Below are positions 13,292 through 64,000 of a stretch of DNA of 64,000 nucleotides, one piece after another (the first letter of the stretch is position 1; each line of letters opens with the position of its first letter). Below the pieces are notes generated by a model, which worked only from the letters and a program-made list of their open reading frames with translations, was not told the origin of the DNA and did no database searches. The position numbers and the translations under genes were made by a program. The stretch lies in NCBI GenBank assembly GCA_950295325.1, contig OX485804.1, positions 8,806,001-8,870,000 on the forward strand, read 5' to 3'. The DNA is from Polytrichum commune (taxonomy: Eukaryota > Streptophyta > Polytrichopsida > Polytrichales > Polytrichaceae).

Positions 13292-21213
<7,922 letters not shown>

Positions 21214-36941: not shown

Positions 36942-37061
36942 GAATTTGAGCTCGTAGAGCTAGGAAAAAATGTGGGAATTAGGTAGGGGCTTAGTGGAAA
37001 TAGTGGGCTTAGGTGGGGTAATTAGGTAGGGGTCTTGGTAGAATCAGGTAGATAGTTAAGC

Positions 37062-40236: not shown

Positions 40237-40254
40237 TCTAGCGGGGAGGACATC

Positions 40255-43200
40255 CTAGGTTGTCCCAACCGACGATCCTGTATAGCCTCCCGGTGTCCCT
40301 TGGGGGTCAGAAGGATGCCCCGTTGGCGCCAACATCCGTAAAGGAGCGATGTTAAACGACTGCAGAATGGCGTCCACGTTCACGGAGGGGGCGGGCTTGT
40401 CATCGTCTGTCTCCAAGCCCGGCATGCCCTCGTCGACGGGCATGCTGAAGTCCTCCCTAGGGACACACATGTCATCCAGGTCCATTGTGGACGTCTTCGT
40501 CCTGTGGACCAGGTATTCCTCCTCGTCTTGGGCGTCAACGTAGCTATTGACCCACAACCCTAGCATCCTGTAGCAACGATTGCAAACATGTCAGAATATA
40601 CAAACGTGCGTTCGTAAACATCAACATTGAAACAAGACCAGATGAACCCATTGAGAAAAATAGTGCCAAAACTATAAAACAGCTGAATCATTGAACATTA
40701 CGAACGAGCGTTCGCAAATCAAAGAATGAGAGCTTACCATGGCCGCGTACATGAACTTGCTACCTCCAAAGACGTTGTACAGCGTCTCTCCACTGATTGC
40801 CAAACTCTGCAACACGGACACGTAGAACTCCAACCTGAGCTCCAACGCGGGGAAAACCGTGTACAATGTCTCCTGCAACAGTTCCTTGGGAGGGGGGTAC
40901 GGTGAAGGATGCCGTATATCTTCTTGAAAGTATTGTTTGCCTTCACAGGCGCTCTCCCTTGCCTGAGTGCATTGTATGTCAAGAAGATTAGGCTGACAAC
41001 TCCCACCTGCTTGTTGCCCCTGGCCTCGTTGATGGCCACGATCCCTTCTGTTTTTGCGGGCACGTAGGTGTTGTGGTAAATGTTGTATTCAAACTTGATT
41101 GTCTGTTCGTACAACTCCGTGACAATGGATAGTTTATCTTGTTCCACTATGCAAAGCCATACGTGAGGCTCCCTCATGGTAGGCGATTTGTATTCCATGA
41201 ACTTTGCCATGAAAGGGTTGTAAAAGGGCAAATCCTTTGCCCCATGCCTCGCACCTCCCGGGATCCCCCTGAAATCAATCAGGGCAAATGGGCAACCCCT
41301 TCGGTCCTCCCTCACCTCGGCCCTGCTGATGGTGCCGTCCCACTTAGAAAATGTGGTCCTCTCCAGCCCGGTTGTGACCAAACAAAATCTCGCCACTCCC
41401 TCGAACGTGGCCCTCCTCTTCCTCTCCAAAAACTTTATATACAACTCCACCTCCTGGGGATCCGTCTCTGTTTTCTCGGTCCTTTTGTTCCCCTTCAGTT
41501 TCAAAATGGAGGCGTGTTCCTTTACTAGACTACGCATCAAGGAGCCGTTGATGTTGTACCCGACCTTGAACTCCTTCCATCCAGCCCAATTGACGTCTCC
41601 GTCGGCCTGAAAGAGTTTGTACTCTGGGACGAGTGCGCCCAACTCCCTCATTGCGTTAGTCTTCAACTTTCGATGGTCGCACCACTCCTTGATGGAGTAC
41701 GTTCTGGGCCTGTGCTTTGGTCTTTTCAAAAATATCTTCGGGTAAGGGATTGTTCTCCCGACGGTGTTCCCAAGAGCATGCACTGCACACCGCTGCAACT
41801 CCAACTCCGTCAACCCCTGAAGGGGCCTAAAAAATTCCCTCAACAGCGGAGGGGCCTCTCTAGTCTTCTCCTGGTTATATTTTTCTTCAATGTCGGGGTT
41901 GATGAGATCCCCCAAATTGTGAGCATCAAAAAACTGGGTCCACAAATCCCACGTGTCTTTGTTGCAACAGATAAGACGGAGCTCACCCTTCAGCTCCAGC
42001 ACCGACTTCATTGATGTGGACTTCATGTCGATGGAAGAGAATTTGTCTACCATCGCATCGCAAAATGCCTGCATTACAAAAGAAATATCAATGATGAATC
42101 AAATACGAACGCACGTTCGTAAATGAAATGTTCAAGAATATTAATAAGGAACCTGAGAATTACGAACGCTCGTTCGTAAACTCACCTTCCATTGTGGAGA
42201 CTGGTTTTTGGCGTTCTCTCTCTCCTTCGGTGGGCAACCGTGTGCCACCCACACGTCTCTCGCAGCCACTATGTTAGCTGCCCACGACGCCTCAAACGCC
42301 TTTATTTTATTCCCGGAATTTAGAAATGTCAAAATTTTCCAGAGCTTGTCCCAGTCGTCCGACCACACCAAGAACGCTTTCCAGTAGCGCAGGTCCCCCT
42401 TGAGCTCGTGCTGGAAGTTGTCGTCCTTGAGGATGATTTGCGACGCCTCCAAGCTGTGTTGTCCATCAATAATCCATAACTCTCCGTTCTGGATTCGTGC
42501 CCAATCCTTTTCCGTGGGACGGGAAGTGAAACCCTTTGGCATAACACACACAGTTTGCCTATCCCACTTCCCGTTGTTCATCAAGTTGTTTATTTGCCAC
42601 TTCACACCTCCGCTTTCACGTGACCTCACCACCCACTTGTTGGGGGATTTCTTGCATTTGAAGCAATCCACGTTGAATGTGAAATGCCGTCCCATGGGCC
42701 TGCAATCCTTTGAATAATTGTTGAAGTCTCGAAGGATACGCGTCGCCTTTGCAGCATCAGGGTTTTCTCCCTTTTTCAACGGAGTCGGCATGAGAGATGG
42801 CGAGTTGACCTTTGCGGTCTCGGTTACACCAGACTTCTCCATGTCATCCCTTGTTCTTTTTGATGGCGTGGAGTGTCTACTTGGCCCTTCTGTCAATCTG
42901 CTAGCTGAAGGGACTGGCCACGGTGCACACTTGGAACCGCCTGCTCCCGATGCAGTAGGTTTTTTTAAACTTTTTTTCTTCTTGTTGGCTTCGGCGACGG
43001 CACTGTTGTACTTGGACATGTTTAGGGCCAGTGCAGTCAGCTTCCTGGCTGTCCAATGTTGGCTGAGGCTGTACTTCGAAAAAAGATTTACCAGGTCGAA
43101 ATGCTTTGCATCCTCTGCAACATTTATCTGTGCGTATGTATGGGAGAAAGCGTGCCTCCTGTAGTCTAGCAGGAGGTTGATATGGTCTTTCTTGTTTTTC

Positions 43201-43485
43201 ATGTCTAAAATAACAAAATCTCCATGCATGTGCCTCTATGGACTCTATCTCCCATGTCTTCATCTGCACCCACTGCTCCGGTTGGTCCGGCCGTGTCTCC
43301 AACTCGTATGTGAACCTCAGGATGAACAATCCGCCATCGGTTTTGTCCGGCAACGCCGTCCACTCCCCCATGAAGTCCTCTTTAGGGACGTAGTTGTAGT
43401 TCCCATTGTCATCTGTCACCGACTCCGGAAGGCGATCCAACTGAACCGCGAACATCTCTATTGCACTCCTCCCTGGTCTAGCCAT
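40255..43485 (-). pseudogene. Copy B: ParB/DGQHR-like + degenerate class beta methyltransferase-like protein
   Basis: Exons: 43485-42186, 42068-40738 and 40567-40255 (TAG). Reads MARPGRSAIEMFAVQ (an ATG at 43509 is also possible), a Lys-rich linker near 42.97 kb, then a ParB/DGQHR-like core ELWIIDGQHSLEAS (about 42.46 kb) and a helical region. In exon 2, CPFALIDFRGIP stands where motif IV (DPPY) of a class beta amino-methyltransferase would be. LAISGETLYNVFGGSKFMY resembles motif X/I (AdoMet binding, FxGxG-like), followed in exon 3 by LGLWVNSYVDAQDEEEYL, as in the motif II region. Lesions: frame changes near 43225 and near 40905 (a C run), and exons 2 and 3 do not join in phase as I placed them. 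Family I palindromes lie in both introns and 5' of the gene. Target and activity are unknown; the domain names rest on motif reading only. Confidence 0.6.
40601..42176. repeat. Palindrome family I, four intronic sites of copy B
   Basis: Intron 2 holds 40601-40614 (arm changed to CAAACG, centre TG) and 40701-40714 (AG). Intron 1, only about 117 bp long, holds two: 42106-42119 (CA) and 42163-42176 (CT). Both introns of the gene therefore carry pairs of sites close to the exon edges. Confidence 0.88.
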
Positions 43486-43520
43486 CTGCAATATAATAGA
43501 CACATTCATAATTGCATTTA

Positions 43521-43949
43521 CGAACGAGCGTTCGTTACTGACGTTTACTGGCCGTCATGAAATCATTTATTATTGGCAAAACAGTTGTTGTTTCTTATTT
43601 ATGAACGATCGTTCGCAAATTTGGTATGATTTCCATGGTGATTTTCATTTCAATGTCTACAAACGCACGTTCGTAATTGTGTGATATGAGGTTCATTTTG
43701 CGTAATCAAAAGGTTTAAGGTTCATTTTTTAGGTTCATTTTTTGAGGTTCGTTCTTTGTGGTTCGTTCTTTGAGGTTCGTTCTTTGAGGTTCATTTTTGT
43801 TTGGTTTTGGGGTATACATATTTATGTCGTTGCCTTAGTTAGATTTACAAACGCGCGTTTGTAAATCTAGGATATGTACTGTATATTCACGAACGTGCGT
43901 TCGCAAATATATGGTGTTCCTTATTTAGTCAATTACGAACGCACGTTCT
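43521..43949. repeat. Palindrome family I, six sites 5' of copy B
   Basis: Sites at 43521-43534 (AG), 43602-43615 (AT), 43660-43673 (CA), 43848-43861 (CG), 43890-43903 (TG) and 43936-43949 (CA, one end base changed). The site at 43848 is the centre of a perfect 30-bp palindrome at 43840-43869. Between 43690 and 43800 lies a short GGTTC(A/G)TT-rich tandem stretch. The remaining DNA to 44385 is non-coding and AT-rich, with no recognised gene. Confidence 0.88.
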
Positions 43950-46540
43950 TAAAAGTAGAGGGTGTGGTATACAGGAATGCTACGATGAGAGCGGTGAGCG
44001 ATGAGCAGATCTCGTGAGCAAAAAATGTTAATTTAAAACTCAATTTAACGAAAGTTGGGACCCTTATGACCATGGATTTAGCACATATTTGAAATTTAAT
44101 TTGTAATTATAAGGCCCATTTTTTTGGAGTGCCCATTTTCCATAACTAAAAAGTTTCTTAAATGTACCAACGACGCCCTATGACCGTGGGAAAATTCTCT
44201 ATGGTTGAGAAGATGGTGGACTAAATTCTCTTTGGAGTATGACGACCACCAAGTGTAGTGTGATTTGAGAACAACGAAAAGTTGCATTCAATGAGATAAT
44301 TGGAATATTGATAACCACGCCACACTTTATAAATCCAAATACCGATCAATCAAACCAAAAACCAATCAAACCAAAATTCAATCAACCATGAGGTTGTCAC
44401 TACTAGATTCCCTACTTCCAAAGATACTACCCTCATGGCCGCCCTCATCTGAAGTGGAATCTAAGCTATGGCACTCATTATCCACCTCCGCAGAATGCTT
44501 GAAGAAGTCTAAGGCACGGGGGTCATAACGTGGAGACGGGGTACTAGCTTCGGTAGGAGAAGGTTGTGCCGCTAATACCATCGCCATATCATGGGCATAG
44601 ATAGGAAAAGTTAAACCCATGGTGGGAGTACCAAACACATCCGCTCCAAGGCCAAGTCTGAAAAAAACCACAAGAATTGTAAGAAAGAGTATGGAAAGTG
44701 TAAAATTTGAATGGACAAGGAAAATAAGCGAAGAAGGTCATCATACTCACTTACTGCGAGGGCTCTGGCCTCGATCGCTTCAAGGCCGGCGGCCTCTTCT
44801 GCGTGCCTTGTGAAGCCTGCGTGGAAGCAACAACTATGGATGAAGCCTTCACCACAGGCTTAACACTCTTAAGAGGCTTAAGGACTCGGTTGAAGGTGTC
44901 CTCGTCCTCCTCAAGAGCAACGATATGGCGCCCAAGCTGCCTGCATGCATGGATAGAAGTCCCTGTTGCGGAGGAAATATTAGCAAACGGAAAAAAAAAA
45001 AAACTTAGAAATTGAAAACTAGGATATGTTGGCAAGTGAATTAGGACATACCAACGCCTGCATTAACGTCCACCACAACCTCTCCAATGTCCGTAGTGGC
45101 CATGATCAAGGAGGACATGAAAAAAATATCTTTCTCCCGGGGACCACGCCAAGCTTTGGAGCCGTCCATGAGAGGAGTTGCGGTATAATTCATAATGGCA
45201 CCCTCCATGTCGAGCTCAATGCCAAGAGCCTTGAGCTCATTGGCATCGCGAAGGCGAAATGACGAGTGTCGGGGCCGCTTATCAAGGTCGGATCCAATTG
45301 TTTTCGTGGCACGAACAAGTAGTACAACTTGGAAGAGGTTGGTGGTCTTGTCCTTATGCTTAGCTGAATGTAGGCGAAGGCGGTTGACTCCCAACCACTC
45401 CTTGAAGATGGTGAACCCAAAAGCAGCGAAATGTCCTCAATGCTCTCCCTGAAGTCACCATTGTCATCTGGATGAAAGAGGAGGAGAGCTCCATCGTCAT
45501 GCAGGATCTCGTCCGCGAAATCGAAGAGTTCACCAATAAAATCGGGATCTAATGCATTCCAGGAAGGTACACTATAGGAAGGATCGGAGACATTGGGCAC
45601 GGGCAGGTTCTCAGGGATGTCAGCAATGACAAGATCAGCCATGCCCACATCTGACCTCGTGACGCCTAGAGCTCTCTTAGGATGGGAGGGTGGAAGAGAA
45701 AGAATGAACTCCGAAACCTCCTGAAAATGACGACGTTGATGGACAATGGAGGCATTCAAGATGCATTCTAAAACAATAGGAGGACGCCTAGTAGATGAAA
45801 GAACGGGCAGTGGAGGCGGCCTGGACAGAGTAGGTACTTGACTAAGAGTTGCAGTGGATGCAACAACCGCCTCAGGTGAAGCAGGAGGATCATCCTCCAC
45901 AGTCTTGAGCTTCCTCGCGCGCTTCTTCAGTGAAGACTCGTCTTGAGTCGCACGCTTCCTCCTCTTGGACTTCTGAGTGTTGGCCTCATCGACAGTCGCA
46001 ACAACCTCATCCGCCTCCGGAAGCTGACTGACGAGGAGAACAACCTCATCGCTTTGACAAGGAGGCTCTCCACCGGAGAGCCGAATCTTCAAGGCCGCCT
46101 CCTCATCCGGTTGCCACGTCCTCTTACATTCCAAGAACCAGCAACACTCGCGGAGATGCGGGAGGGAGAAGTAGCGCTTTTGAAGCGGGGAAAAAACGAA
46201 GGTGGGCGAAGAGGAATCTGACCATGCGTCTAGAAATGGAGGGAGCTTCTTCAAAGCCTTCTTCTTGAATAGCTCGTGCTTGATGTACCTTCACAACCAA
46301 GTAAGGCCAATTAGCAACTTAGAAAACATATGGGTTGATATGAATGAAGAAAACAATAGATGTGTTAACTAACGTACCAAAAAATTAAGCGTTTGACAAT
46401 GTTGTCACCGCCTTTGACATCCTTCCACCACGTCCCTTTGCCGTATATATCTGACCCTGAAAAGTGACCAAAGAACGCCTTATCCCATAGACAGATTCGC
46501 CACTTCTCCAAGTAGTCCGGTGTCGTGATGTGGACGGTCT

Positions 46541-47778
46541 ATTAGTTAGAATTTAGATATTTTATTTGTTTTCGTTATTTTTAAGTTGATCTTAGTTAGG
46601 TAAAAACCGGTCTTAAGTTGAAGATCGAATGAATTGGTAGATGGATGTGGTAGGTAGAATTGGATTTACCGGCGGGCCAATAGCTAACCACCTAGGAGTT
46701 CTAGAAGGTTTTTACTTTAAATTCCTATTGGCTTGCCGAATTAGCCTTTAGTCCCAAACTTCCTATTTCTAGCGAGATAAAGGTTCTAGAAACCTTTAAC
46801 CCCATATCTTTTCTATTTCTAGTAGGATAAGGATTCTAAAAACCTTTAACCCCAAAGGTCACCCATTAGCAAGCCACTTGGAGGGGTTCTAGAGGACCTT
46901 ACCTCGATGGTTTCCTATTGGCCGAAGGGGGGCAAGGTGGAAAACTATTTAAGGGGTGTTAGAAGAGTGGTTAAGGGGGGACCATTAGTATTTTGAAGTT
47001 GATACTTGTGTAGGATCGAGGGAGCTTAGAGCATTTTGAGAGGAATAAATGCTTAGAAGGCTCATCTACACAAAAGGGTGTGGAGGTGTAGCATTTAGAG
47101 TGACTAGATTGCACTAGGTGCACTACTTGTTGAGTTTTATTGGTTATGAACTTGAGCAGAACTTTATAGTAAAAGATTTGTCAATTATGGATGATCGGAG
47201 TGTTCAATGGATATGAAAATTTGAGGGATTGTTTATTATGAGTTATGGAAGATATGGTAAAAATTTGAGAGCTTCAGTCATTGGCATAAAAAAGTTATTA
47301 AGAGTTGAAGGGAAGGGTGTCTAGGAACAAAGCCAACTAAACTAGCAAGGTTTGAAAATATGTATCTTTTAGAGGGTTATAGATATGGATACCAAAATTT
47401 GAGACCACCTTTTGAACTTACACATCTATCTTGTGTATAAATCTGAGATTTATTAGACATAAGAGTAGGAAGTTATTAAAGTTTTAGTGACCGGGTGTTT
47501 TATCACAGGATTCATGCTAGGTAGTTAGATATAGAATATAATGCATAACTTTTGTATATGAACTCTGATTGTGCTCAAATTTGATGGGAATGTTTTTGAT
47601 AAGGTACTTAATAAGTGTACCAAATTTCACTTGAAGAAGATGAGTTGGTTTTGAGTTATACTATTATGAAGTTTAGAGGGATCACATTGAGAGAGATTTA
47701 CATCAAGAGTATAGGAGAAGGAAAACTACTATATTTTTTTTAAATACTACCATAAAATAGAAGCCCGGCGCTTACCGG
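46541..47778. other. ~1.2-kb AT-rich intron or insertion splitting an exon of copy A
   Basis: Copy C has one exon (62283-62042) where copy A has its coding match split: LEEAAVKELSDILNALGG lies at 47892-47775 and LEKWRICLWDKAFF at 46536-46370. The intervening DNA has no open frame. It contains an internal ~60-bp duplication (CCTATTTCTAG..GATAA..TTCTA) at about 46751-46860. A donor-like CCG|GTAAGC is present at its 5' side, so it may be spliced as an intron. No target duplication is visible. Confidence 0.5.
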
Positions 47779-48649
47779 ATAGTGCACATTTTCCTTGACA
47801 CCGGCAATGAATCAACTTCCACGTCTCCGTCAAGCCCACCCAATGCATTTAGTATATCGGATAACTCCTTGACCGCGGCCTCTTCTAGCTGTGGATAAAT
47901 TCAATGCTAAGATAAGAATTGGCACAAAATGAAGAGTTGAAAGGTAAAGAATGATAAGGAATATACATGTACTCCCGCCCAGAACGCTGTTTTATTGAGC
48001 CAAGGTTTCAAGGTGTCCTCGCTTGCTGGACTTTTGGGAAACCGGATAGCTTCACGATTGAAACTTCCACTATTCCACCACTTTAGCCAACGGACTTTAT
48101 AATCTGGCTCCACAGCAGTTGTGGCAATGAGTTGCAATTTCTCCAATGTCATCTCAATCTTCTGAGAATGGTGGGCGCTATAATGCCTAGTAATCTGAAA
48201 CAAATGCAATCAAAATAGAAGGCGGATTAAATTTAAGAATATATACCGAGAAAATGCTGAAAAGTATGCGAGCAATACGGAAGGTATAATTCCAAGGGTG
48301 AAGACACAGAAATTACCTCATCTTGGAACATCAGACCTTTCAATCAACGCCGTCCACCTAGAAATCCAGCAATTGAAACCTTTCATCCTCCTCTCATCAG
48401 ACCATAAACCACCACTAACTAACCTAGGTAGACCTCAGGGCCTCTCTCCCTACTACCTATAGAGCATACAACCACATATTACACATTCAAGCCTTCACAT
48501 CAGACCTCTATTCAGACCTCCCTAGCCAAGCCGAACAGCCATAAACCACCACTAACTATCCTAGTTGGCCCTCAATTACTCGATTCCCTGAGCACCAAAA
48601 AAATAAAAATAAAAATAAAAATAAAAAAATCTGAAGGAGGCACCCAAAG

Positions 48650-49389
48650 GGTCTGTCGGATCCGACAGACCATTTAGGCCCCCCCACCAGACCTCGCAAG
48701 CATCCACCTATGGATTTTATATCCACCAATCTAACCTTACCCCCCTCTATTCAGACCTATGACGATCCTACCTCTAGAGCATACAATCAAATATTAATCA
48801 TTCAGACCCTCACATCAGACCCCTCAAGCTACTACATTTCCAGCATACTAGCAAAAATTAAACCGTACAGCCCTCATTTCAGACCACTCAAGCTACTACC
48901 ATTCCAGCATATTAGCAAAAATTAAACCTCACAGCCTTCATTTCAGACCACTCAAGCTACTACCATTCCAGCATATTAGCAAAAATTAAACCTCTCAGCC
49001 CTCATTTCAGACCACTCAAGCTACTACCATTCCAGCATATTAGCAAAAATTAAACCTCACAACCCTCATTTCAGACCATTAGGGCCCTCACATCAGACCT
49101 CTATTCAGACCTCACTAGCCAAGCTGAAAAACCATAAACCACCACTAACTAGCCTAGTTGGCCCTAGTTTACTCAATTCCATGTGCACCTAGAAATCCAG
49201 CAATTGAAACGTTTCACCCCCCTCTCATCAGACCCTCAAACAAAACATTTCAACCATAAAACACCACTAACTAACCTAGTTGGACCTTAGTTTACACGAT
49301 TCCCTGAGCACCCAGACCTCAGAAATTAAAAAAAAACATATGTGAGCTTCTGTGGGAGGCACCCAATGGTCTATCGGATACGGCAGACC
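48650..49389. repeat. Palindrome family II sites and 64-bp tandem array
   Basis: 48650-48671 is a perfect 22-bp palindrome centred on CTGTCGGATCCGACAG; 49368-49389 is a degenerate copy. Between them, about 48806-49080 is a tandem array with a 64-bp period (CAGACCACTCAAGCTACTAC, then CCAGCATATTAGCAAAAATT), about four units. A (AAAAAT)n tract lies at about 48598-48630. All are inside a large intron of copy A. Confidence 0.85.
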
Positions 49390-49399
49390 AAGAGAAATT

Positions 49400-52330
49400 A
49401 CCTCCTCTAGGAACTGTTTTCCGAGGGCCGGGTTTGCTGTAGTTAGTTTTTTGGTTACAAACAAAACCCAGGGAAACACTCAGGGAAGACTTAAAAGGTG
49501 ATTTCTATATCATCTAGGTGTCTTAGATAAGGTTCATTAGAGAAAACATAAGGTTATATCACCTCTTTTCAGATTAAAATAGACAATTAGTTTAGGGGTA
49601 AGGGATAAAAAACATTTAAAAGATCACTCCGTTTCAGTACATGCAAAGGTGACAGTCCCTCACCTCACTCTACTTTCCCAGTCAATTGTCTGGCAGTGAG
49701 TTCATTTTAATTGGACCAAGTGCGGTGCAAAATCATAGGCATAGCCATAGTCAATAGTCTTGCGATAGTATCCCATTTATGTCTCTTTACCAAAGCCAAG
49801 GGCACTCTGGTGTAGACCATAGTCTTTCATTGATTAAACCCTTTTAATGTAACTTGGAAAAAGACAGTGCCGTAATCCCTTCGGGATAGTCAGTATCCTT
49901 TAATTAGATTCCATTTTAATTAAACAGTCCGACAATCGTCTTTTACCTGGTATCGGCCAAAGCAATCAACATCTCTTTCCTCAAGGCCATAAGTCCAAAA
50001 CCACGTAGGCGCGTTAACATATTCTCACATCACTCCTGAACTGATTTTAGTTATTTAAAATTCCAATTCAATATTCTTAAATCACCAGACAATTGATTCA
50101 ACAACTCATCTCATTATTATAAACAAGGTTAAGCAATTCAATTATTAGAGATGGTAAAAGTTCAATTTAACCTTAGTTCCTTCAAGATTTTAGTAAGCAA
50201 TCAATTCTTACCGATATAGTAAGCAGCACGTCCTGTTGTTCTCACCGCATCGAGCTAATCCTTCGCAGACCATAGTCTCAACATATTATCCGTTCAACTT
50301 CCACCATAGACTTGAACAGTTTCTCCATTTACACGAAGAAGACGATAGTCTGACTCTTCGCTCAATTGGATTGTACACTAGAATCCGGGCTACAACCTCC
50401 CAACATTTTCACATATTACCATGACATTACTCCCTTCACCCAAATTACTTTGGAGAATGAAATCACATCAATGACAATTGACTTGGTGTGTACTCCACTT
50501 TAGAGGCACTTTAAGAATCAGTAAGAACAAAGGTGGAAAGTCTATGGCCTCTTAACTATTTCATACACACGAGCAAAAGAGTGATACATTAAAATACTTA
50601 TGCTTTGTCATTCAACCTTAAACTGAGGATTATTCATAAATTAACTGTAAGATCTCTCTTGAAGCAACATACTTCATACACTTTTAAGGTATTGGAGAAT
50701 ATTAAAACATAGACATGTCCTCATAACTTAACTCATTATGACCATTGTCATCACAGAACTTAAGTATCAGGGATTATATTCCAAATTAATATCACAGTAA
50801 TGGTCCCCTAATCAACCAAGTTATATTCATGCACCAATCTTTTGTGCAGTCTCGATGATATATTATCGGTCAACTGTATAGTCGGATCTATCTATGATGA
50901 GGGAGAACTAACAGTGAGTCACAGATGAACCGGATAAGTTGGAGAATTAACCGGTTGAAGTTCAATACTACGAGAGAATTACCGATCACTTTTAAAGGAA
51001 TTTATAGAATATACTTCAAATTAATATAGAGAAACCGAAGGATGTCCACATGTAACCGGTTCAACCTGCAAACACTGGGAACTCAACCGAGGATGCCCAA
51101 AAATTCTCTCCGATCACTCGAGTCCCGAAGCAAATCGGTTGAATTAACAGTAGGTAGGGAACGAAAGTAAGACTATAGCCTGGTTTCAATCCGCAACCAC
51201 AGATAACCAAGACAATGGACTGTTTACATGCATTGGCTAATAACTACATTTTCGAGTGCAATCAGAATGTTAATTAACTGCAGAGATTCCCAGATTACTT
51301 ATTACTGCATCCGTATCCCTGAACTGTAATTCCATAATCCCACTCACTGATAATCACAAGTATTCCCAAATTTGACACTGATGGGCGAAAGTTGTTTGCA
51401 GCATTAATTTGACATATCAACGATCATCACAAACTTCACATTCACCGAACGGTTATCCTTGCATGAGGTATTAATCCAAATTATATTACTAAACTCATTT
51501 TGATACATCCTAATCGGACACAGACCATAGACTGAATCTGATTTATTTCACGCTTACAGAACACGAAATAATTGAGTTACTGACCCCTCAGCCTCTACGA
51601 ATTAACTGAAATCACGGTGTTCTATCAACCTTCTAATTTAAGCGCAAGATAAACAAGGATAATGCCAACATAAACAGACTATTGACATTGCCTAACTCAA
51701 TATCTGAAGTTCGCATTAACACAATATTGAAATTAGACAATGGCCTGAAATAAAATCACTGCAGAACTCCGTACACCGTCTGCTCATAATTCACAAAGAC
51801 AGGAAATGCGTATATAATTTCTTACTCCATTGAAAACAACCGGTAATTGCAATACAGATTGCAAGTACACAATCAATGCAGTTCAACAACTTTATAATAA
51901 TTCTCAAAATTAAGATAGTTCAACTCTGCTCAAAAGTCAAAGGTAAACAGGCTATGGTCCGGCCCTAGAGGAATCACTCCCCTCGGCCAAAGCGAATCTT
52001 CACACCATTTGTTTTAAACTCTTTTGGCTCAAAAAAAGAGCTTCATTCCCTTTTAGTTTCAAATTGCACTAACTAGGCTCAAAAATAGCTACCACATTTG
52101 CGATCGATTGTTGCTTATTAAACTTGTGTCCAAGTTCCTCAATCGTCTTCTTTATCACAACGTCCAATACTTCATCCAACCCATTTCATGACTGCTCCTC
52201 AAGAGGCACTTCCTCTTTGTAGATTTGGGCTGCCTCATCTACCGCATCGGCTATCTCTTGCTGAACATGTATGCTCAATTGTTAGATCATGACTAAGAGT
52301 AATGAATGCGAATTAGAAGGTTGAGGAATT
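49400..52330. other. Large gene-free intronic stretch of copy A
   Basis: About 2.9 kb of AT-rich DNA without a supportable exon. Short AACCGGTT-containing segments recur near 50930-51070 and elsewhere, suggesting transposon remains, but I found no terminal repeats or protein domain. A short open stretch at about 52190-52330 (QEIADAVDEAAQIYKEEVPL on the minus strand) could be an exon of copy A. Confidence 0.45.
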
Positions 52331-54076: not shown

Positions 54077-54084
54077 ATCCAGCC

Positions 54085-54625
54085 ACACTAGGAAGCCACC
54101 AAAAATCAGATAATAACCCCACATTTCTGCCCCCAGTTCTCACCTTGAACCTCCCGGAAATCAAAAGCAAGGTGCTCATATCTGCTCCTAGCTCTAACCT
54201 CTAATCTCACTAAGGACCATCCAACCACCCTAGGAAGCCACCAAAAATCAAATAATAACCTCACATTTCTACCCCTAGCTCTCACCTTGAACCTCCCGGA
54301 AATCAAAAGCGAGGTGCCCATATCTGCCCCTAGCTCTAACCTCTAACCTCACTAAGGACCATCCAACCACCCTAGGAAGCCACCAAAAATCAAATAATAA
54401 CCTCACATTTCTACCCCCAGCTCTCACCTTAAACCTCCCGGAAATCAAAAGCGAGGTGCCCATATCTGCCCCTAGCTCTAACCTCTAACCTCACTAAGGA
54501 CCATCCAACCACCCTAGGAAGCCACCAAAAATCAAATAATAACCTCACATTTCTGCCCCCAGCTCTCACCTTGAACCTCCCGAAAATAAAAAACGATGTG
54601 CACATATATGCCCCTAGGGGTCTGT
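54085..54625. repeat. 142-bp tandem repeat, about 3.8 units
   Basis: Units share CACCCTAGGAAGCCACCAAA, CAAATAATAACCTCACATTT and CCTCCCGGAAATCAAAAGC. The last landmark falls at about 54157, 54299, 54441 and 54583. Several similar ORFs on both strands come from this periodicity and are not genes. Confidence 0.9.
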
Positions 54626-55197
54626 CGGATCCGACAGTGCCTCTAACTCTAAATTCAAAGAAAAAGAAAGCTGAAGAAAGAAAGAAACGAAACGAACGAA
54701 CGAACCGAACCGCACCGCACCGCACCGCACGGCCTGGCCCGCGCCCGCTCTAGCTCCTTCTCCTTCTCCGTCTTTTTCTTTATTTAAGGATGCCTAGTGG
54801 GTTTGAAGCAAGGGTTATGGATTCGCCGCTCCACTCACACAGACTTCGCCGCCTATAGATGTCGCCGCTCACACAAGTTTCTCCGCTCACAAGTATCACA
54901 ACTCACAGATTTCACAACTCAGAGAGGCCGGCTCCCTCACAAATCGCACAGGTACTACGACGACACAACAATTCTCTCACAGAAGTAACAACAAATTTAG
55001 GGTCCAAGTGTTTGTTTGTAAAACCAACAACGAAAATGGAACCTCCACTACTACGGAGTCAAAGCTGGTTTAGGGAAGTAATGGGAGCCCTAAACCACAA
55101 GCCACTCTAAGTGAGCATTTATCCACCCTAAGAGGCCATCAAAAATCAATTAGCGAGGTGCACATATCTGCCCCCAGGGGTCTGTCGGATCCGACAG
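54622..55197. repeat. Palindrome family II, two further perfect cores
   Basis: CTGTCGGATCCGACAG occurs exactly at 54622-54637 and 55182-55197. Both are preceded by CACATAT(A/C)TGCCCC and AGGGGT, so a longer repeat unit carries them. The DNA between includes CGAAC and CGCAC microsatellite runs near 54690-54730. Confidence 0.85.
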
Positions 55198-55651
55198 TGC
55201 CCCTAGGCTCCCACTTCGAACCTCACTATGACCATCCAGCCACCGAAATTCATATGATCACCTCTCATCTCTGGCCCCCAAGCTATCACATCGAACCACA
55301 CTAAGAGCATCCAGCCACCCTACAAAGCCACCAAAATTTTTGCCCCCCCCCCCCAGCTTTCACCTTGAACCTCACTAAGGATCATCCAGCTCTCACCTCA
55401 AACCTCACTAAGGAGCCCTTTGCCAACCCTAAACCAGCCATCTAAAGTCATTTGCGAGGTTCAAATTTCATCCCCCAGGGCTCTCACCTCAAACCTCTCC
55501 ACGGGGTGACCACTGCCCTTCCCTCGAGCCACTCCCCCGCTCCAAATCGTGGCTGCAACCCTGCAAGCCTAGTTCAGAGGTCTGTTGTAATGCGGGGAAC
55601 AATGGTAGGCTACTGCCGCGGCAGTCTTGTTCCCTTCCACTTGTGACGGTC

Positions 55652-56063
55652 TCATTGTGATGTCGAGTGCTTCGACAGGCCCACACTTGTTGCCTTCTCT
55701 AGCTCACGAATACAACCCCTAATTTCTAGTGCATATATGTTAACATCGACTTGAGGTTCATACCTGGGTCTCGCAAATTCTCGATAGATCATGTGATATC
55801 TCCACTTGTCTGGTCGTACCCACTCCAGCTTCCTTGCTAGCAATGTCTTCACCACTGTGAGTCTGGCTTCTCCGTATACGAGACCTTGACCGTATACGGT
55901 CTGGGGAGAATTCCAATGCCTTGACTGTGCTGTTTAAGCTATCATATCGTTGTTTCGGTGGTCTCATCCTAGATGCCCTTAATTGCTTCCTGCTTGAGAA
56001 AAGTGCCTTCCTCCTCCTCTTCGCCTTTGGTTTCACTAACTCTATCGGCGAGGACCTTGTCAT
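55652..56063 (-). CDS. Possible 5' exon(s) of copy A, basic N-terminus
   Basis: From the ATG at 56063 the frame reads MTRSSPIELVKPKAKRRRK, a very basic, nuclear-signal-like stretch, to about 55860. There the better-looking frame changes to VKTLLARKLEWVRPDKWRYH ... VDVNIYALEIRGCIRELEK, ending near a possible donor at about 55690. The overlap means either a frameshift or a short intron with acceptor CACAG at about 55860. Orientation and position fit the start of copy A, but I could not demonstrate splicing to the exon at 53377. Confidence 0.35.
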
Positions 56064-57121
56064 GTAACTAAACCGGCTTCACAAATTCTACACTTCCCCC
56101 CTCTGTGAACATCACTCTATCAATGTATGTGTCTCGCCTATATTACATCCACACTAATATTCCATCCCATAATCTCGTTCACATAATGTCGATATGTTTT
56201 GATTACAGTCAAGTTGCTATAAACATATAAGGAATCATAGAAAGGAACATTAAAAGAATGAACACGGATGTCTAATAACATTTATAGAAATAATCCAGAA
56301 GTAATCTAAAAATGAAGAATATCATGTTTTATAAAAATAAAATTGATAGTACAAATGATAATACATAATTCAAACTAAACTAATTGAAAGAAATATTCTG
56401 TATAGCCATACCTTGACGATACTCTTCCAACTAAACTAACCTATTCTAGCTTCTCCTTAAAGGTTAATGCTCTTCCCTTGCCCATTTCAATCCTCCACTC
56501 CAAAAGAAACACTTTACTTTAGGGTGTCCCTTATATCCACTAAATGGTTCACGTGGTCTCTGGTGTATTTATAAGTACGTCACTCGGCATCCAGCCTCAT
56601 GTTTGTTATTAATATATCTATTTTGGATTGGCATATGATCATGACTAACTTAAGTAATTGCTCCACTGCATTTTCAATTTTAATTCAAATTGCTCAATAA
56701 ACATGACGGTGACAAATATGGCAAAGGGCCCCAGAAGCGTATTCGTTGTTAATACCAATGTTGCATTCTAATGTTTGGCATTTTCTATTCCTGAGCTACT
56801 ATCATGTTTAGTATGTATGCCTGTTATTGGATTCTATTATTTTTAAACAAATACTATTTTGTCTAGTAGAATGTCTACCATGACTTGGCTGATATAATTT
56901 GGAGTATCGTGACCTACTTACCGCTCTCTTTCAGACTCCTTGGTTTAGGGTGTTACACATTTAGAAGTATCATTCATGCTTTCCTTCATGGATCATCCGT
57001 CATTTGGATCATGTCCATCATCGTTGTCTTTGGCAATGCATTTCTAATAAATAGGTATCCCACAATGTTGAGAAACCTCTTCCATATTTCCGTCATCGCG
57101 CAAGTCCTCATTCCCCTCATC
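56064..57121. other. Spacer between copy A and the transposase
   Basis: AT-rich, non-coding in appearance. The transposase frame is open back to about 56885 without a convincing start. No terminal inverted repeat of the transposon was found here by eye. Confidence 0.45.
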
Positions 57122-59233
57122 ATGGCTCATGTGCCTGCTAACGGAGAAGTGGGGATGGCAATCCTTTATGCTGATGGACAGAGAGTCCCACTTACCTTTC
57201 GGATGGAGGACAGCGGACTAGCTTACGTGACGTCCCAACGTTTGAGTAGTCGGTTCGGTTTCAGAGAGGACACTATTGTTGTTGACGAGGATATATTCGA
57301 TGTTGTCACGTCAGAACTTATACACACCCTTGGTCGCATTTCGCATCGAGATGAGAACAATAACATGTTTTGGACTCTTCATCCAGGTAGTTACCGAGTC
57401 TATGGCCTCACTGAATCTCAGATGGCTGCTTCTACTGAGATCCTCACTCCTCGCTCTTCCTCTACCTGCACCATTCAAACTCCTCTGCCACGTGATGTGA
57501 AGGTCAAGCTCGAGCCCGGTCTCGAGACGCCTATTGTAGAGAACTCTAGAGTAGAATCTGTAATTACACTTTCTTCAGATGATGAGGTCAGTCCCACCAA
57601 GCCCCCGCCTCAGGTTATAGTTGGTGGGGACGCTCCTAAAGTATATCCTTTGTCGCAAGAAATTGTTAGCATAGTACCATTATTAAAACAACTTGCAACA
57701 ATGCCGGGAAAAAAAAATATTCTTAAAAAAATAGACTACTCGGTGATTAGACACGACATGGTAGAGTACCTTCCTGCTCTGTTCGATGGTGTTGTCATCT
57801 TCGAGTTGCCACCTGCTAGTCACACGGCCGCACGGTCACAGGCCAAGTCTATGCAGGGAATGGACAAGCGTTACGACGGCCATGTGTGGACGAAGACCAT
57901 CACCACCAACATCACAAACGACTTTGGTTTGTCCTTCCGTTCTTCCGCCTGCGTTGGACACATGCGTTGCAACAACAAGGAGTGCGAATATCTGATCCGC
58001 CGACCTCGTATTTTCCAAGTCAACGAGACAGAGTTTGAAGGTTGTTCCCTACAAGCCTTTGTAGTGGATCAAACACCACCAACAGAGTCCACTCTTGTTT
58101 GCAAGGTATGTAAAGAACCCCCGGCATGTATTGCTACATGTGGAGCAAAGATTTATTATGTGGCTGGCAAAATCAACCATACAAGAGCGTGTATCCACCT
58201 AGGAACTCACGATCACCCAGTCAAGGTGGGCGACTACAGAGACACTAAGGCTGAGATCAATGGCTTAATTGAAGAACAAATCGAGAAGACTCCCCAGGCT
58301 ACCAAGAGTGCAGTGGTGCTGGAGGCTAGCAAAGTTCTAATTGGCAACTATCTTCTTCAATTCGATGGCGTGCCGCCAAAGAAGCTCACTCTAGAGGAAC
58401 TTGTTCATGTCTTTGACCAATGCAAGGACATGGCTTCCCCAAACATCCGCAACAAGGTTATGAACTTCCGTTTCCTCAGAAGGTATGGTGTCATGGACTC
58501 TATCACCAAACTCCGTGGAATCAATTTATGGGCCTTTGTTCAGGAGAACAAATTTCCAGGTCAAGGGGCTGATCTTGACAAGGTTTTTGTCTTCAAGATG
58601 TCGGAAGTCGGTCCTGGTAGTGGTGTGGACTTGGTGAAGCGTATGCAGCCCGGCGAAGATCTGGAGAATGCCTGGATGATGTTCAACCATGTCAAACGTG
58701 TAAGACAATGGACCACAATGGCATGCCACGTGTATGACTCCACATATTGTCGTGTCATGACCATTGCAAGTTGTGACATGCAATCTGAGGGCTCTGATGC
58801 CCAGATCGTTTTCTGGAAAAATCTCAATGCTATCATAGAAAGAAATGGCGTTGTCAAGCCCAACTTCAAGGGTTTCATGGCCGACAGCGCCCAGGCCAAC
58901 TGGAATGCAGTTCGGATCATATATGGCAACGGGAAGAAGGAGGACTGCATGGACGACCGGGAGAGAACCTGTCAGTTTCACTGGACCCAGTCTATGGTCA
59001 AATATACTGAGAAGTACATTCCCGAAGAACTCTGGGAGCAACACAAGAAGATGTGCCACCAATATAGGACGGCGAGGACCATGGACGAAGCTGAGAGTCT
59101 ATACCATGGGCTACGTGCATGGTGGGTGTCCGCTGGGGCAGTGACAGAGAAGGCCCTAAACAAACTAGAGCTCTGGATTACATTCTGGCACTACCGTTAT
59201 CGCCAATGGGGAGGGGGAAACTCAAGTATGTGA
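57122..59233 (+). CDS. MULE-type transposase-like protein, probably C-terminally truncated
   Basis: Cut-and-paste DNA transposase of the Mutator-like group. From the ATG at 57122 (MAHVPANGEVGM; the frame is open further upstream) the protein runs about 703 aa. Its first 270 residues are an unrecognised N-terminal region. Next come Cys pairs (CVGHMRCNNKEC, CKVCKEPPAC) and a WRKY/FLYWCH-like CxxH..HxH (ACIHLGTHDHP). The catalytic region shows candidate acidic residues in VYDSTYC, FMADSAQANWNAV and DEAESLYHG, with the MULE-typical CxxH (CQFHWTQ) between the second Asp and the Glu. It stops at 59233, soon after KLELWITFWHYRY, where related proteins usually continue, so it is probably cut off. It is a single long open frame without introns, on the strand opposite to copies A and C. 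Confidence 0.75.
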   Translation: MAHVPANGEVGMAILYADGQRVPLTFRMEDSGLAYVTSQRLSSRFGFREDTIVVDEDIFDVVTSELIHTLGRISHRDENNNMFWTLHPGSYRVYGLTESQMAASTEILTPRSSSTCTIQTPLPRDVKVKLEPGLETPIVENSRVESVITLSSDDEVSPTKPPPQVIVGGDAPKVYPLSQEIVSIVPLLKQLATMPGKKNILKKIDYSVIRHDMVEYLPALFDGVVIFELPPASHTAARSQAKSMQGMDKRYDGHVWTKTITTNITNDFGLSFRSSACVGHMRCNNKECEYLIRRPRIFQVNETEFEGCSLQAFVVDQTPPTESTLVCKVCKEPPACIATCGAKIYYVAGKINHTRACIHLGTHDHPVKVGDYRDTKAEINGLIEEQIEKTPQATKSAVVLEASKVLIGNYLLQFDGVPPKKLTLEELVHVFDQCKDMASPNIRNKVMNFRFLRRYGVMDSITKLRGINLWAFVQENKFPGQGADLDKVFVFKMSEVGPGSGVDLVKRMQPGEDLENAWMMFNHVKRVRQWTTMACHVYDSTYCRVMTIASCDMQSEGSDAQIVFWKNLNAIIERNGVVKPNFKGFMADSAQANWNAVRIIYGNGKKEDCMDDRERTCQFHWTQSMVKYTEKYIPEELWEQHKKMCHQYRTARTMDEAESLYHGLRAWWVSAGAVTEKALNKLELWITFWHYRYRQWGGGNSSM

Positions 59234-59834: not shown

Positions 59835-62800
59835 TCAACAACTAGGACTACCATGTCTATCACTATCCTCGCCCTCCTCGGCCTCTATGTCTAGATAATC
59901 TAATACTAGGTTATTGAAAGGGCGGATGCGAAGAGGAGGTGGGGACGGTGCTTCCGCCAAGAGATTGGCAAGCCCAGCCACATAGGAAGGGAGCTCGAAC
60001 GTCGTCGAAGGCGAGGAAAACATGTCGGCGGTAAGGACACGAATTGGGCTAAGAAATGGAGCTCTGAACAAACATGACAAGAAAAAAATTACATTAGACA
60101 ATGACAACAACTTCAAAGCGAGAAGGAAAGAAATGAAAAGAAGAAGTTCGAAGCCAACAACGAACTTACGCACACAACAAATCAAAGTTGCGCTTCGCCA
60201 TCTTGCGGGGGGGAGGAACAAAAACCGATCCCCGTTGTGGGGCCACGTATTGTGAGGTGTGTTCTTGCTCTGCCTCACGCATGGGGAGGAGGAGTGACTT
60301 GAAGATGTCGATGTCCGACTCTAAAGCCACAATATGGCGTTGAATGGAGCGGCATGCAAGGACGGAACCTCCTAATACAACCAATTGCGGAAATGTAAGG
60401 AGACGGGAATGAAAGGAAAATTAAACAAGTAAAAAAAAATTAAAAAAAATTAAAAAATGAAAATGAAAAACAAGGAGATTAAGGACATACCAACGCCACA
60501 TTGCCAATCTAATATAATGTCGTCCTTGTCCGTGAGTGCGGAAAAAAGAATAGAAAAAAAATCGGCTCGTTTTTCACGAGCATCTTTCCATGGCACTCCG
60601 CCTTCCCTCATAGATTGGTTATTAGCATCAACGAAGCTGTTGAGCCATCCATCTCTCTTAAGATTGTACCCCTTATCATCAACCTCCGAAGTGCGGACTC
60701 TCAAAACTGACTCATTACGAACGAGGACCTTGATGAAAAACTTGCGAGTCTGGAAGAAATCCGAACCTTGGAATTAGGAATTCTGAAAAACAAGGAAAAA
60801 ACAAAAAAAAACCCAAATGTGAGGAAAGAAAGGAATTACCAATTCGGATGAAGAAGTGGGCGACTGAAGATCGAGGTCATTCATTCCGAACCAGTCTTCG
60901 GCGACGTAGAACTCCTCTGTGTATGCCTAGTTATGAATCGACCTAGATACTTCAGGATCTGCGGCGTGTGCAAAGACTAGGACGCCGTCGTCATGCATGT
61001 TAGCACTAGCAAAGGCAAACAAAACCTCGAAGTAAGAAGGAGATCGAGTGTTCCACTTAGGAACCTCTAAAGGAGAGGCATATATGTTAGGGACACGGAG
61101 GTTCTCGGGGACATCTGCAAAGAGAAGATCAATCCCTGTGTGAACCTTAGGCTTCGTATTAGGACGAATACGGCCCCCTCCAACTTGCGAGGCAAAAATT
61201 GAAAGAAATTAAAAAAAAACATAGATCAAGAATGTGGATTAAACGAAAAAAACATTGAATGTTACACTGACCTTTGTAATGAATTCTTGGATGCGACGGC
61301 AGGCCGGAGGTTGAACCTTAGTTCGCATGAGGTCCTCTATCATCTCCCCCATGTCGACATTCTCAATCAAAAGGAGAGAAGACGACTTCTCTGAAGAAGT
61401 TGCGGAGGTATCAGGCGCGACGGCCTTCCTCTTGCGAGGAACGGAGGCTAGGGGAGGGTCACACCGCTATGGGAAGGCGCAGGAACAAGGTCTGGAGCTA
61501 TGGCAGAAGGAGTTGCAGATGGACTACCGACAACAGTTGTGGTTGGAGCAGCCGTACGCTGAACGGAGGCCTTAATGTAAGAACGAGTGGACACCTGACT
61601 GGAGGCCACCCTCTTACCTTTCCCCTTACCCTTTGCAGACCCAACCTCTTTCACAATGGGGGGAGGAGGAGGAATGGGGTCTTCTTCCGGCTCCTCCTCC
61701 AGTTCAATTACCTCCGGGGAAGAGGACACCAAGCTGCTGTAAAGGGATTCCTTTGGTTCGGGAACGAAACCACGTGAACAATCCAAGTACTAGCCACCTG
61801 CGACCAAGTGCGGGTGGGGGAATTTGGTAATCTGCATGAGAGTGTATACACACTGACTGTACCTCGTATCGAACCATTCTTGGAGGAATGACGGCAAAGA
61901 AGAAGAAGGAAAAGCATTCTTGACGACAAGCTCACGATGAATGTACTTGCATAATATAGGGTATGAGAATACGAAAAATGAAGCAAAAAAAAGAATGGAA
62001 TGAAATAAGGTAAAACAAATCAATATCAAAAAAGGGATTACCGATAAGCAACGCGCTTGATAGCAATGGGGCCTTCTTCAAATTCCAAGAGATCAAGGCC
62101 TTTGACAAATTTTAAATCTCCCTTGTCGTCAAAATAAACCAAAAATGCCTTGTCCCACAAAATCAGCCTCCAATGCTCAACGTAATTGGCAGGTTGGAGA
62201 ATATCCTCCGAGGAACCCCAGTCAATGTCAACATCCGCCTCATTCTCAAATGAAGCAATCTCAGCCTCAACCCCCTTCTCCAACTATGAAAAGAATGAAA
62301 AATAGTTTAGAAACCAGATTCCAAAAGTCATTAAAGAAATCTAAAACTAGGCATTGAAAATACACATATACCAAGCACATTGAGGTTATTGATTTCCACA
62401 TATCAGTTCTAGTAAGCTTGAAAACAGATTCTAGGATTGACTTCATAATTCATTAACCAGCCCCCTGAGGTTCCTGATTTGCACATAGTAGTTCTAGGAA
62501 GCCCGAACCTAGACTCTAGGATTGACTTCATAATTAATGAAACAACCATTGAGGTTCCCGATTTCCACATATTAGTTGTAGTAAGCCTGAAACTAGACTC
62601 TAGGATTGACTACATAATCAAATATCAAGCCCCTTGAGGTCCCTGATTTCCACATATTAGTTCTAGTAAGCCTGAAAACAGACTATAGGATTGACTTCAT
62701 AATTCATTAACCAGCCCCTTGAGGTTCTTGATTTCCACATATTTGTTCTAGTAAGCCCGAAACTAGAGTCTAGGATTGACTTAATTATTCATTAACCAAC

Positions 62801-64000
62801 CACTTGAGTAGCATGATTTCCACATATTAGTTCTAATAAGCATGAAACATGACACAAGGCATGACTTCAAAATTCATTAACGAGCCCCTAGGGGTTCCTG
62901 ATTTCCCCACCATAGTCCAATATTGGGCCTAGACACCACACATTCTAACACCCTCTCAGAACCGAGAGGGTGGCCAACTATGTATAAACCAGAATCCATA
63001 TTCTAAAACTCATTCTAAAAATCTAAGACGAGTCCTTCAAAGTCCACATTAACAAGCACATGGAGGTTCCTGATTTACACATATTAGTTATAGTAAGCAT
63101 GAAACTAGACTCTAGGAGTGACTTTATAATCAAATATCAAGCCCCTTGAGGTCCCTGATTTCCACATTATTAGCTCTTATAGGCCAGAAACTTTACTCAA
63201 GGCTTGAATTCAAAACTCCTAGACCAGCCCCTTGGGGTTCCTCATTTCCAAATACTAGTTCTAATTGGCCAGAAACTTGACTCAATGCTTGACTTCATAA
63301 TCAAATATCAAGCCCCTTAAGGTCCTTGATTTCCATATATTAGCTCTTATAGGCCAGAAACTTTACTCAAGGCTTGAATTAAAAACTCCTAGACCAACCC
63401 CTTGGGTTCCTGATTTCCCCACCATTTTCCTATATTGGGCCTAGGCACTCCACTTTCTGACACCCTCTCGGAACTGAGAGGGTGCCGAGCTATGTATAAA
63501 CCTGATACACTTTTCTAAATCTCATTCCAGCATTCTTATACTAGTCCTACAAAGTCCACATTTTGACACCCTCTCGAAACCGAGAGGGTGCCCAACTATG
63601 GATAATCCTTATACCATATTCTAAATCTCAATCCACAAATTCAATACTAGTCTTTCAAAGTCCACATTTTGACAAGCTCTCGGAACCGAGAGGGTGCCCA
63701 ACTATGTGTAAACCTGAAACCATATTCTAAAACTCCTTACAGAAATCTAAAATTTGAAATAAAAAACAAAGAACAAACATCATTTCGGAAACCTCGAAAA
63801 GAGAAAGGATCAAAGAGAGGAAAAAAAATTGTAGATGCACCTGAGCCCAGAATGAAGCTTTGTTGAGCCAGTTTTCGAGGACTTTCTCCCTAAGAGGGAG
63901 AGACGATGGAAATCTATTCTTATTTTTGACATCGGCAGGGGAGTTCCACCAACGAAGCCACTTGGCCTTGAAGTGGGCATCGACATGTGCAGTGGCCACC
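59835..64000 (-). pseudogene. Copy C: class beta methyltransferase-like part of the ParB-fusion family (N-terminus outside window)
   Basis: Exons, 5' to 3': about 63999-63850 (KAKWLRWWNSPADVKN ... WLNKASFWAQ); 62283-62042 (WRLILWDKAFLVYF); 61945-61272 (YIHRELVVKNAF, proline and basic linker, frame change near 61449); 61183-60840 (DLLFADVPENLRVPN as motif IV position, HDDGVLVFAH, then an in-frame TAG near 60928 before AYTEEFYVAEDWFGMND); about 60756-60491 (FFIKVLVRNES, WKDAREKRADFFSILFSAL, DWQCGVG); 60371-60170 (GSVLACRSIQRHIVALESD); and 60063-59835 with an acidic tail. Every block has a counterpart in copy A in the same order, including a phase-1 intron that splits motif I. The ParB-like part would lie to the right of the window. 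Activity is doubtful because of the lesions and the missing DPPY. Confidence 0.6.
62350..63720. repeat. Intron of copy C filled by two tandem families, with palindrome family III
   Basis: From about 62350 to 62880 and again to about 63400, units of about 85 bp carry CTGATTTCCACATATTAG, CTAGTAAGCC, GACTCTAGGATTGACTTC and AAGCCCCTTGAGG. From about 62940, and tandemly after 63460, a ~106-bp unit brings a hairpin with arms CACCCTCTC and GAGAGGGTG at 62949-62972, 63461-63484, 63567-63590 and 63673-63696 (the last with one arm mutated), followed by CAACTATGTATAAACC. Confidence 0.85.

Follow-up and report, generated by a model that had tools for sequence, protein, structure and literature searches.

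Transposons that carry a ParB-like protein joined to a DNA methyltransferase are already known in algae, namely in Ectocarpus and in green and red algal relatives. In the Ectocarpus element Sola1-1_Ec32 the accessory protein combines a ParB-like part with an N4C/N6A methyltransferase, and self-marking of the element has been suggested for it in the part of PMC12477816 that was consulted. A second point of reference is VANC, an accessory protein of the Arabidopsis VANDAL elements (MULE transposons), whose short motif is, according to the consulted part of PMC5735166, family-specific, located in tandem repeats as well as in introns and the noncoding DNA upstream, and different from one family to the next. 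We have analyzed a 64,000-nucleotide stretch of the Polytrichum commune genome (the window; G000:C2:8806001-8870000, part of an assembly of 408 Mb that includes seven large contigs), in which three minus-strand gene copies, B, A and C, had been described in a first-pass annotation of the letters as ParB-like proteins fused to class-beta methyltransferases. These copies are fragments of many-copy DNA transposons, and the families examined contain palindromes of their own. We propose, with a probability of roughly 55%, that the accessory protein of such families recognises the palindrome of its own family, in the manner of VANC.

The transposon nature of the copies is directly observed. When searched against the genome, exons of A and B recur throughout it, with non-self E-values down to 1e-231: the copy B exon has at least 112 matches in its own genome (1,018 first-look candidates, 112 scored), the methyltransferase exon of copy A at least 119 (1,570 candidates, 112 scored) and its ParB-like exon at least 150 (995 candidates, 150 scored). 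Many of these rows share one common E-value, as expected of identical copies, and near-identical copies are found at separate places of the genome. Complete elements were obtained by comparing 10-kb pieces around the copies and then extending them. The A element is represented by three copies of 15.8, 16.2 and 16.4 kb with both ends in common (A1 being G000:C7:11383094-11399475), the ends forming an imperfect inverted repeat (GGACGAGACTTGTATGTGAGCGG / GGGGAAAGTTAGTATGCGAGCGG) and all three copies being flanked by 10-bp target duplications (aggtccaagg, ggcgtggggt and atggtcacgc). It encodes two transposase-like open reading frames (ORFs) of 762 and 548 residues on one strand and the accessory gene on the other. 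The target duplications of MULEs measure 8–11 bp, and, judged from its sequence, the A family fits a MULE-like element whose transposase Pfam does not recognise: neither a MULE domain nor DUF7869 is matched, and a SWIM finger in the partner ORF of A1 stays below cut-off (E 0.14). The A element also contains a satellite-like array of 170-bp units (L009:1-2106, L017), numbering 14.3, 11.4 and 13.3 in the three copies, and most units of this array bear one palindrome.

The B element is of a different kind. Its full length is 16,066 bp (B1, G000:C4:4663324-4679389), its ends read AACACTATATTCG..., and its transposase ORF matches DUF7869 (4e-40); any Sola1/CACTA-like affiliation of the family is tentative. 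Target duplications, read by eye off the element ends, are of 4 bp and present in seven of the nine elements with both ends in hand: of ten copies examined at their ends, seven have both, and a duplication is present in six of the seven (ATGT, TCTT, CTAA, ACCT, ATAA and CAAG), while of the full-length copies B2 has one (AGTG) and B1 none. An intact B element additionally encodes, near its right end, a NIF phosphatase (L013:9098-9883; 2.9e-16), which the window copy retains. A further, related family, D, adjoins one B copy on its right, and its proteins share 43% and 53% identity with those of B, the accessory gene encoding 1,355–1,361 residues over three exons in B and 1,257 residues in D. The DUF7869 transposase and the 4-bp duplications are demonstrated for B.

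Inside the elements lie repeated palindromes that differ with the family. A1 has 16 copies of CTGTCGGATCCGACAG, B1 has 25 of TTTACGAACGnnCGTTCGTAAA and D has 9 of TTTACGGACGnnCGTCCGTAAA in 6.6 kb; among loci of the A superfamily, TGTTTCGGGCCCGAAACA occurs in L051 and GTGTCTCGGnnCCGAGACAC in L048, L050, L052 and L053. In the families examined these palindromes are 16–24 bp long and are found in noncoding DNA, introns and upstream arrays. Genome-wide there are 374 sites of the A palindrome, 4,680 of B, 1,382 of D, and 53 and 997 of the TGTTTCGGGCCCGAAACA and GTGTCTCGGnnCCGAGACAC types, and the reversed control of each of these five has no site at all. Gene neighbourhoods were counted for the A, GTGTCTCGG and TGTTTCGGGCCCGAAACA palindromes over listed sites only (50 of 374, 50 of 997 and 50 of 53) and against scored gene matches only, so that misses are possible. 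On contig C1, 46 of the 50 listed A sites have a listed A gene at a distance of 12 kb or less, the other four being 36 kb off the nearest one, and none is near a listed gene of B or of the divergent group. The 50 listed GTGTCTCGG sites on this contig all have a divergent-group gene nearby, and no A or B gene is near any of them; for both palindromes 0.5–1% would be expected. For TGTTTCGGGCCCGAAACA, 44 of the 50 listed sites are near genes of the divergent group, with the remaining six 25–26 kb away. The divergent group comprises several families, and these counts thus separate A, B and the group, not the families inside it. In total, seven families have seven different repeated palindromes, two of which come from a later look upstream of the genes (see below). 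The four A-superfamily palindromes have a common core, TCGGnnCCGA, and differ in their outer arms, a single base in each half-site separates the B palindrome from that of D, and that of family F is distinct.

The arrangement of the sites was analyzed in A1 and B1. In B1 the search imposes the 16 bases looked for; outside them conservation is 84–96% at the first three positions on either side and 72% at the fourth, and it drops to 28–56% beyond, with the central pair free. In A1 the flanks are alike because most sites are in one array. Eighteen of the 25 B1 sites are noncoding, four are in introns of the accessory gene and three inside ORFs. The sites span 6.7–10.8 kb of the 16.4 kb of A1 and 3.9–13.2 kb of the 16.1 kb of B1, and tandem units that contain sites measure 170 bp in A1 and 49–50 bp and 179 bp in B1. 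Separately, TGTTTCGGGCCCGAAACA (L051; G000:C1:53276795-53283188) resembles the bacterial parS site, which we take to be TGTTTC...GAAACA, a likeness that may be due to chance.

The architecture of the accessory gene is seen in an intact A copy, L009, whose seven exons with GT-AG borders join the ParB-like and methyltransferase segments in one 1,013-residue frame; three of its six introns offer a single donor-acceptor choice and the rest were picked among 2–10 for the longest frame, hence continuity is partly by construction, and the start codon and last exon are provisional. The succession of a ParB-like and a methyltransferase part within one gene, which the first-pass annotation had read from motifs, is supported in this one A copy. 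Single exons of the window copies give no usable Pfam match for either domain, which indicates that splicing is needed for detection: the spliced A-family domain matches N6_N4_Mtase (PF01555) with 28.6 bits, against a cut-off of 26.7 (E 1.7e-6), and a phage methyltransferase family with 8.6e-8. Over the whole genome PF01555 has 118 matches at E ≤ 10, five of them above cut-off (three on the small contigs C10 and C12, two in family F), and below it dozens of rows fall at profile positions ~163–194, many adjoining motif-IV exons. In family F (L061, G000:C1:9658500-9665500; L062, G000:C4:44108900-44114900) the methyltransferase domain is whole in one 577-residue frame and matches PF01555 with 1.1e-7 and 1.5e-8 (32.4 bits for L061, 35.3 for L062), and BLASTP within an 11-sequence set identifies it as a homologue of the A protein (2.5e-13).

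Profile and fold comparisons point in the same direction. A joint family profile, which includes copy C exons, matches in the PDB CcrM (3.2e-5) and M1.HpyAVI (4.7e-5), and matches phage ParB-methyltransferase fusions with 8.9e-5 at a probability of 60%. With the first alignment used, ornithine decarboxylase antizyme (0.0033) had ranked above DpnA (0.13); the better alignment gave CcrM. The AlphaFold model of the methyltransferase is weak (mean pLDDT 44; TM-scores 0.13–0.21 by query); a Foldseek search with it returned 101 hits at E ≤ 1e-3, the best being CcrM (2.2e-5), and the hits listed, at least 50, are all DNA or RNA N6-adenine methyltransferases. Along the A superfamily the motifs follow in the order IV, X, I, II, as inferred from the alignments and from the HMMER alignment to CcrM, with motif I well formed in the spliced gene (DINAGVGTS). 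On this sequence evidence the C-terminal half of the A superfamily is a class-beta N6/N4 methyltransferase homologue, as had been proposed from the position of motif IV ahead of motif I. The catalytic motif IV of this class is (D/N/S)PP(Y/F/W). All 13 A-type rows have DLPE, DIPE, DVPE, DQPE or DILE in its place, the three B-type rows have DFRG or DFRA, and the canonical form is found in none of these; family F has DIPY (DIPYG) in one copy and DIPD in the other. With so degenerate a motif IV catalysis is doubtful in most families seen, and family F, with its DIPY copy, would be the likeliest to include an active enzyme.

The N-terminal half is probably ParB-like. DGNH is invariant in the 12 aligned A rows and DGQH in the three B rows, and below library cut-offs there are matches to the ParB-like phrog_1033 in two A exons and in D (0.017–0.4), in B to DGQHR (TIGR03187; 0.47) and GmrSD_N (0.061), and in D to DUF6551 (0.13) and DUF1015. 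We take DGQHR and GmrSD_N to be models of the ParB superfamily. The consulted part of a ParB-fold survey mentions DUF6551 and DUF1015 by name. Unrelated models are found at similar E-values, namely thymidylate synthase (0.23), HTH_metalloreg (0.034) and Vac_ImportDeg. The AlphaFold model of the ParB-like exon is poor (mean pLDDT 41.7) and the fold search with it was empty, hhalign of the ParB-like part against phage ParB profiles gave nothing, and PDB profile searches with the ParB-like parts returned chance rows only (0.96 and 0.3).

As anatomy for the A superfamily, a transposon-borne, self-recognising DNA-binding protein with a methyltransferase-derived domain is very likely, and self-recognition as the mechanism is moderately likely. 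The accessory gene, adjoining the transposase, would encode a protein of about 1,000–1,360 residues that binds the palindrome of its own family as a dimer and assembles over the palindrome array. It would thereby recognise fellow copies of the element, on which it may counteract host silencing or set expression and transposition, as VANC does, and in most families the methyltransferase module, devoid of the usual motif IV, would serve as a DNA- or S-adenosylmethionine (SAM)-binding module. Palindrome binding, the anti-silencing role and the loss of catalysis are what we infer. A more ambitious version, which we hold only tentatively, would make of the system a eukaryotic counterpart of ParB-parS: private pairs of protein and loading site, a protein that spreads along the element and repels silencing, a mostly dead methyltransferase that reads DNA or SAM, and new families arising through a change of palindrome. 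In either form the system has a candidate target that can be read from sequence, one palindrome per examined family, with up to thousands of perfect copies and varying along with the protein, by which transposon self-recognition against host silencing becomes testable with a protein and an oligonucleotide.

Several results weigh against the proposed self-recognition, and they are best considered with the data to which they belong. In respect to the ParB-like half, the DG(N/Q)H box and the weak superfamily matches are at most suggestive of the original assignment, with no match to PF02195 and its relatives over the cut-off of any library and with a poor structural model; genome-wide, PF02195 has matches only on the small contigs C10, C12 and C23, which are probably bacterial or phage contaminants. 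On C10 and C12 (L063 and L064 are among the loci of these small contigs) ParB_N and N6_N4_Mtase stand in one frame with DPPY, and the protein of C12 shares 70% identity with one on a viral contig. The methyltransferase half of B has no profile match, and comparison of A and B profiles is not significant for either half, the top alignments being at DGNH/DGQH and near motif I; a match of the B methyltransferase part to A disappeared with the improved A profile. Two proposals of the first-pass annotation, that B forms one gene family with A and C and that its second half is a methyltransferase, accordingly found no support in these searches.

The palindromes are also unevenly seen. Among ten divergent loci, 5 kb each, L044, L045, L046 and L049 have no repeated palindrome and L047 has only an A/T-rich one, and two family F loci have none in 6–7 kb. 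The upstream 4 kb was examined for L044, L046 and L061: six copies of GTGGTGGTCGGGTCCGACCACCAC spaced ~322 bp apart lie upstream of L044 (L071, G000:C7:22081001-22085000), TGTTTGTGCGCTGGCGCACAAACA occurs twice upstream of L061, along with three truncated or altered versions (L072, G000:C1:9654501-9658500), and a single GTGTCTCGG-type site was found upstream of L046, L049 also having one. GTGGTGGTCGGGTCCGACCACCAC and TGTTTGTGCGCTGGCGCACAAACA are outside the genome-wide counts. Selection on the exons is mostly purifying: among 48 pairs tried, 28 were saturated without a ratio and 19 of the 20 computable ones have nonsynonymous to synonymous ratios (dN/dS) of 0.03–0.41, by the Nei-Gojobori method on columns kept for local identity, a trimming that biases the ratio down, from pairs that share sequences and with several ratios taken at dS near 2 or more. 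The remaining pair, of two near-identical copies, has a ratio of 1.12. With the trimming bias in mind, the accessory protein looks constrained despite riding on a transposon.

Finally, the palindrome varies with the whole element, so that a transposase or a host factor could be its binder. The palindromes would then be sites of the transposase or of, for example, a host replication or chromatin protein, with the ParB-like protein doing another job. Transposase and accessory protein are confounded in our data, and subterminal sites for the transposase are common among DNA transposons. However, the palindromes are not clustered at the ends, as the spans in A1 and B1 indicate, four of the 25 B1 sites are in introns of the accessory gene, and the two element types have different-looking transposases, with DUF7869 in B and no such match in A; we thus judge this explanation rather improbable. 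The same holds for active self-marking, in which the protein would bind the palindrome and methylate the DNA of its element to N4-methylcytosine or N6-methyladenine, as has been suggested for the brown (Ectocarpus), green and red algal proteins. The shared architecture with Sola1, for which the consulted part of PMC12477816 makes this very suggestion, argues for it, as do the good motif I and the DIPYG of a family F copy that passes Pfam; the non-canonical motif IV of every aligned A-type and B-type row and the DIPD of the second F copy argue against it, which leaves self-marking an unlikely account.

Much less probable is a passive origin of the palindromes, as a mere side effect of the expansion of tandem repeats. 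Many sites do lie in tandem units (those of A1 and B1, and the ~322-bp spacing at L044), but in B1 the contexts are many and the conservation of adjoining bases falls to background within a few positions, and seven families have arrived at seven different palindromes. As to the suggestion that these are host genes, local decaying copies of a plant ParB-methyltransferase gene with many introns, the introns and the plant genome (marked by LEAFY, see below) speak for it, whereas terminal repeats, target duplications and more than 100 dispersed copies, some near-identical, identify a transposon and make a host gene scarcely credible. What had been taken for rare, decaying copies are transposon genes with many other copies in open frames.

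Turning to the window itself, the ORF list bears out the placement of the motifs and their orientation on the minus strand throughout. By blastn, B (33904-43542) and A (44206-59214) are members of different element families. Copy B (33904..43542, minus strand) is the right-hand part of a B-family element, with blocks at 33904-36528, 37975-39040 and 40013-43542 that are 76–87% identical to B1; the left part of B1, including the transposase, has no match in the window. Its gene comprises exon 1 (42144..43235, minus), which bears DGQH in a ParB-superfamily-like segment and has its N-terminus in another frame at 42901-43554, and exon 2 (40737..42098, minus), with DFRG at the motif-IV position and methyltransferase-like by motif only; an aligned intact relative has GGSKF at the motif-I position of this exon. 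Near the right end of the element is the accessory ORF for the NIF/FCP1-like phosphatase (35312..36082, minus; PF03031, 5.8e-16). An 833-bp A-type fragment is inserted in copy B on the plus strand (39041..39873; 91.7% to A1 9010-9842), and B palindromes of the ACGAACGnnCGTTCGT type are found by palindrome scan at 36295, 38197, 42104, 42160 and 43520 (span 36295..43535).

Copy A (44206..59214, minus) amounts to most of an A-family element, corresponding to A1 positions 2163-15385, with blocks of 87–97% identity to A1, lower in the tandem array, and interrupted by other sequence. Its gene, also on the minus strand, includes exon 1 (52751..53410), a ParB-like segment with DGNHRLLA supported by the ORF list and own-genome matches, followed by an exon with the RWLKWWNS block (47910..48209; WLKWWN), which matches exon 4 of L009, and by an exon with the KxHEL block and motif IV (45193..46290; ADIPENLPVP). 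The latter is damaged, its frame being broken after FRESIED and shifted between 45193-46290 and 45044-45436; the continuation in the other frame (45044..45436) contains WRGPREK in the region of motif X, and DVNAGVG as motif I, and an exon with TSIHACRQLGRHIVALEED (44754..45062) holds the end of motif I and a GRHIVALE-type motif II. A transposase-like ORF on the plus strand (56870..59230), divergent to the ParB-methyltransferase gene, is 88.9% identical to A1 2163-4525 and has no transposase match in Pfam. Tandem repeats occupy 54073..55297, where the A palindrome occurs at 54622 and again at 55182; a third site is at 48650.

Copy C (60169..63999, minus), read from the ORF list and motif alignments, is part of a third gene of the A superfamily, a diverged one that is truncated where the window ends. 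It retains a WLRWWN exon (63730-63999), an LWDKAF exon (62041-62283), further frames at 61451-61789 and 61242-61466, motif IV as DVPEN (60930-61208), motif X/I (60453-60773) and motif II as RHIVALESD (60169-60420), all minus; the segment 60930-61208 matches the L061 methyltransferase (BLASTP 3e-4 in the same 11-sequence set). In the left part of the window are two host gene remnants, a HECT ligase piece (5422-7605; 8.8e-12) and an EPSP synthase exon (20812-21243; 1.4e-6). The SAM_LFY family is not known outside streptophytes. LEAFY is present in this genome at four loci (7e-33; G000:C1:40569930, C7:8639033, C1:62297762 and C7:14030880) and in none of 14 control genomes, from which the host is a streptophyte, in agreement with the plant origin proposed earlier.

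In relation to Sola1-1_Ec32, here the host is a streptophyte, the carriers are MULE-like elements with 10-bp duplications and DUF7869 elements with 4-bp duplications, the catalytic motif is mostly degenerate and family-specific palindromes are present; neither "palindrom" nor "binding site" occurs in the main text of PMC12477816. Phage ParB-N6_N4 methyltransferase fusions (PMC12704722, consulted in part) and L063 on contig C12 are alike in domain order and methyltransferase class, but L063 passes PF02195 and PF01555 and has DPPY, whereas the plant proteins fail PF02195 and have a long middle part and introns. With ParB-parS the likeness lies in a palindromic site and a ParB-type protein, membership of which is indicated here by sub-threshold matches only. 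The literature searched contained no account of such palindromes or of land-plant cases, and a report may exist in Iyer 2011 or Petroll 2025; as far as it goes, the host lineage, the two transposon kinds, the degeneracy of the catalytic motif and, most of all, the palindromes private to the families are new. A streptophyte host and two kinds of transposon would imply repeated recruitment of the protein. The closest functional parallel is with VANC: the family-specific palindromes suggest a self-recognition system of that type, even if, in the consulted part of PMC5735166, the VANC21 motif is an oriented 9-mer where ours are perfect palindromes, VANC is not described as a ParB-methyltransferase protein, and the anti-silencing activity that our elements would share is demonstrated for VANC.

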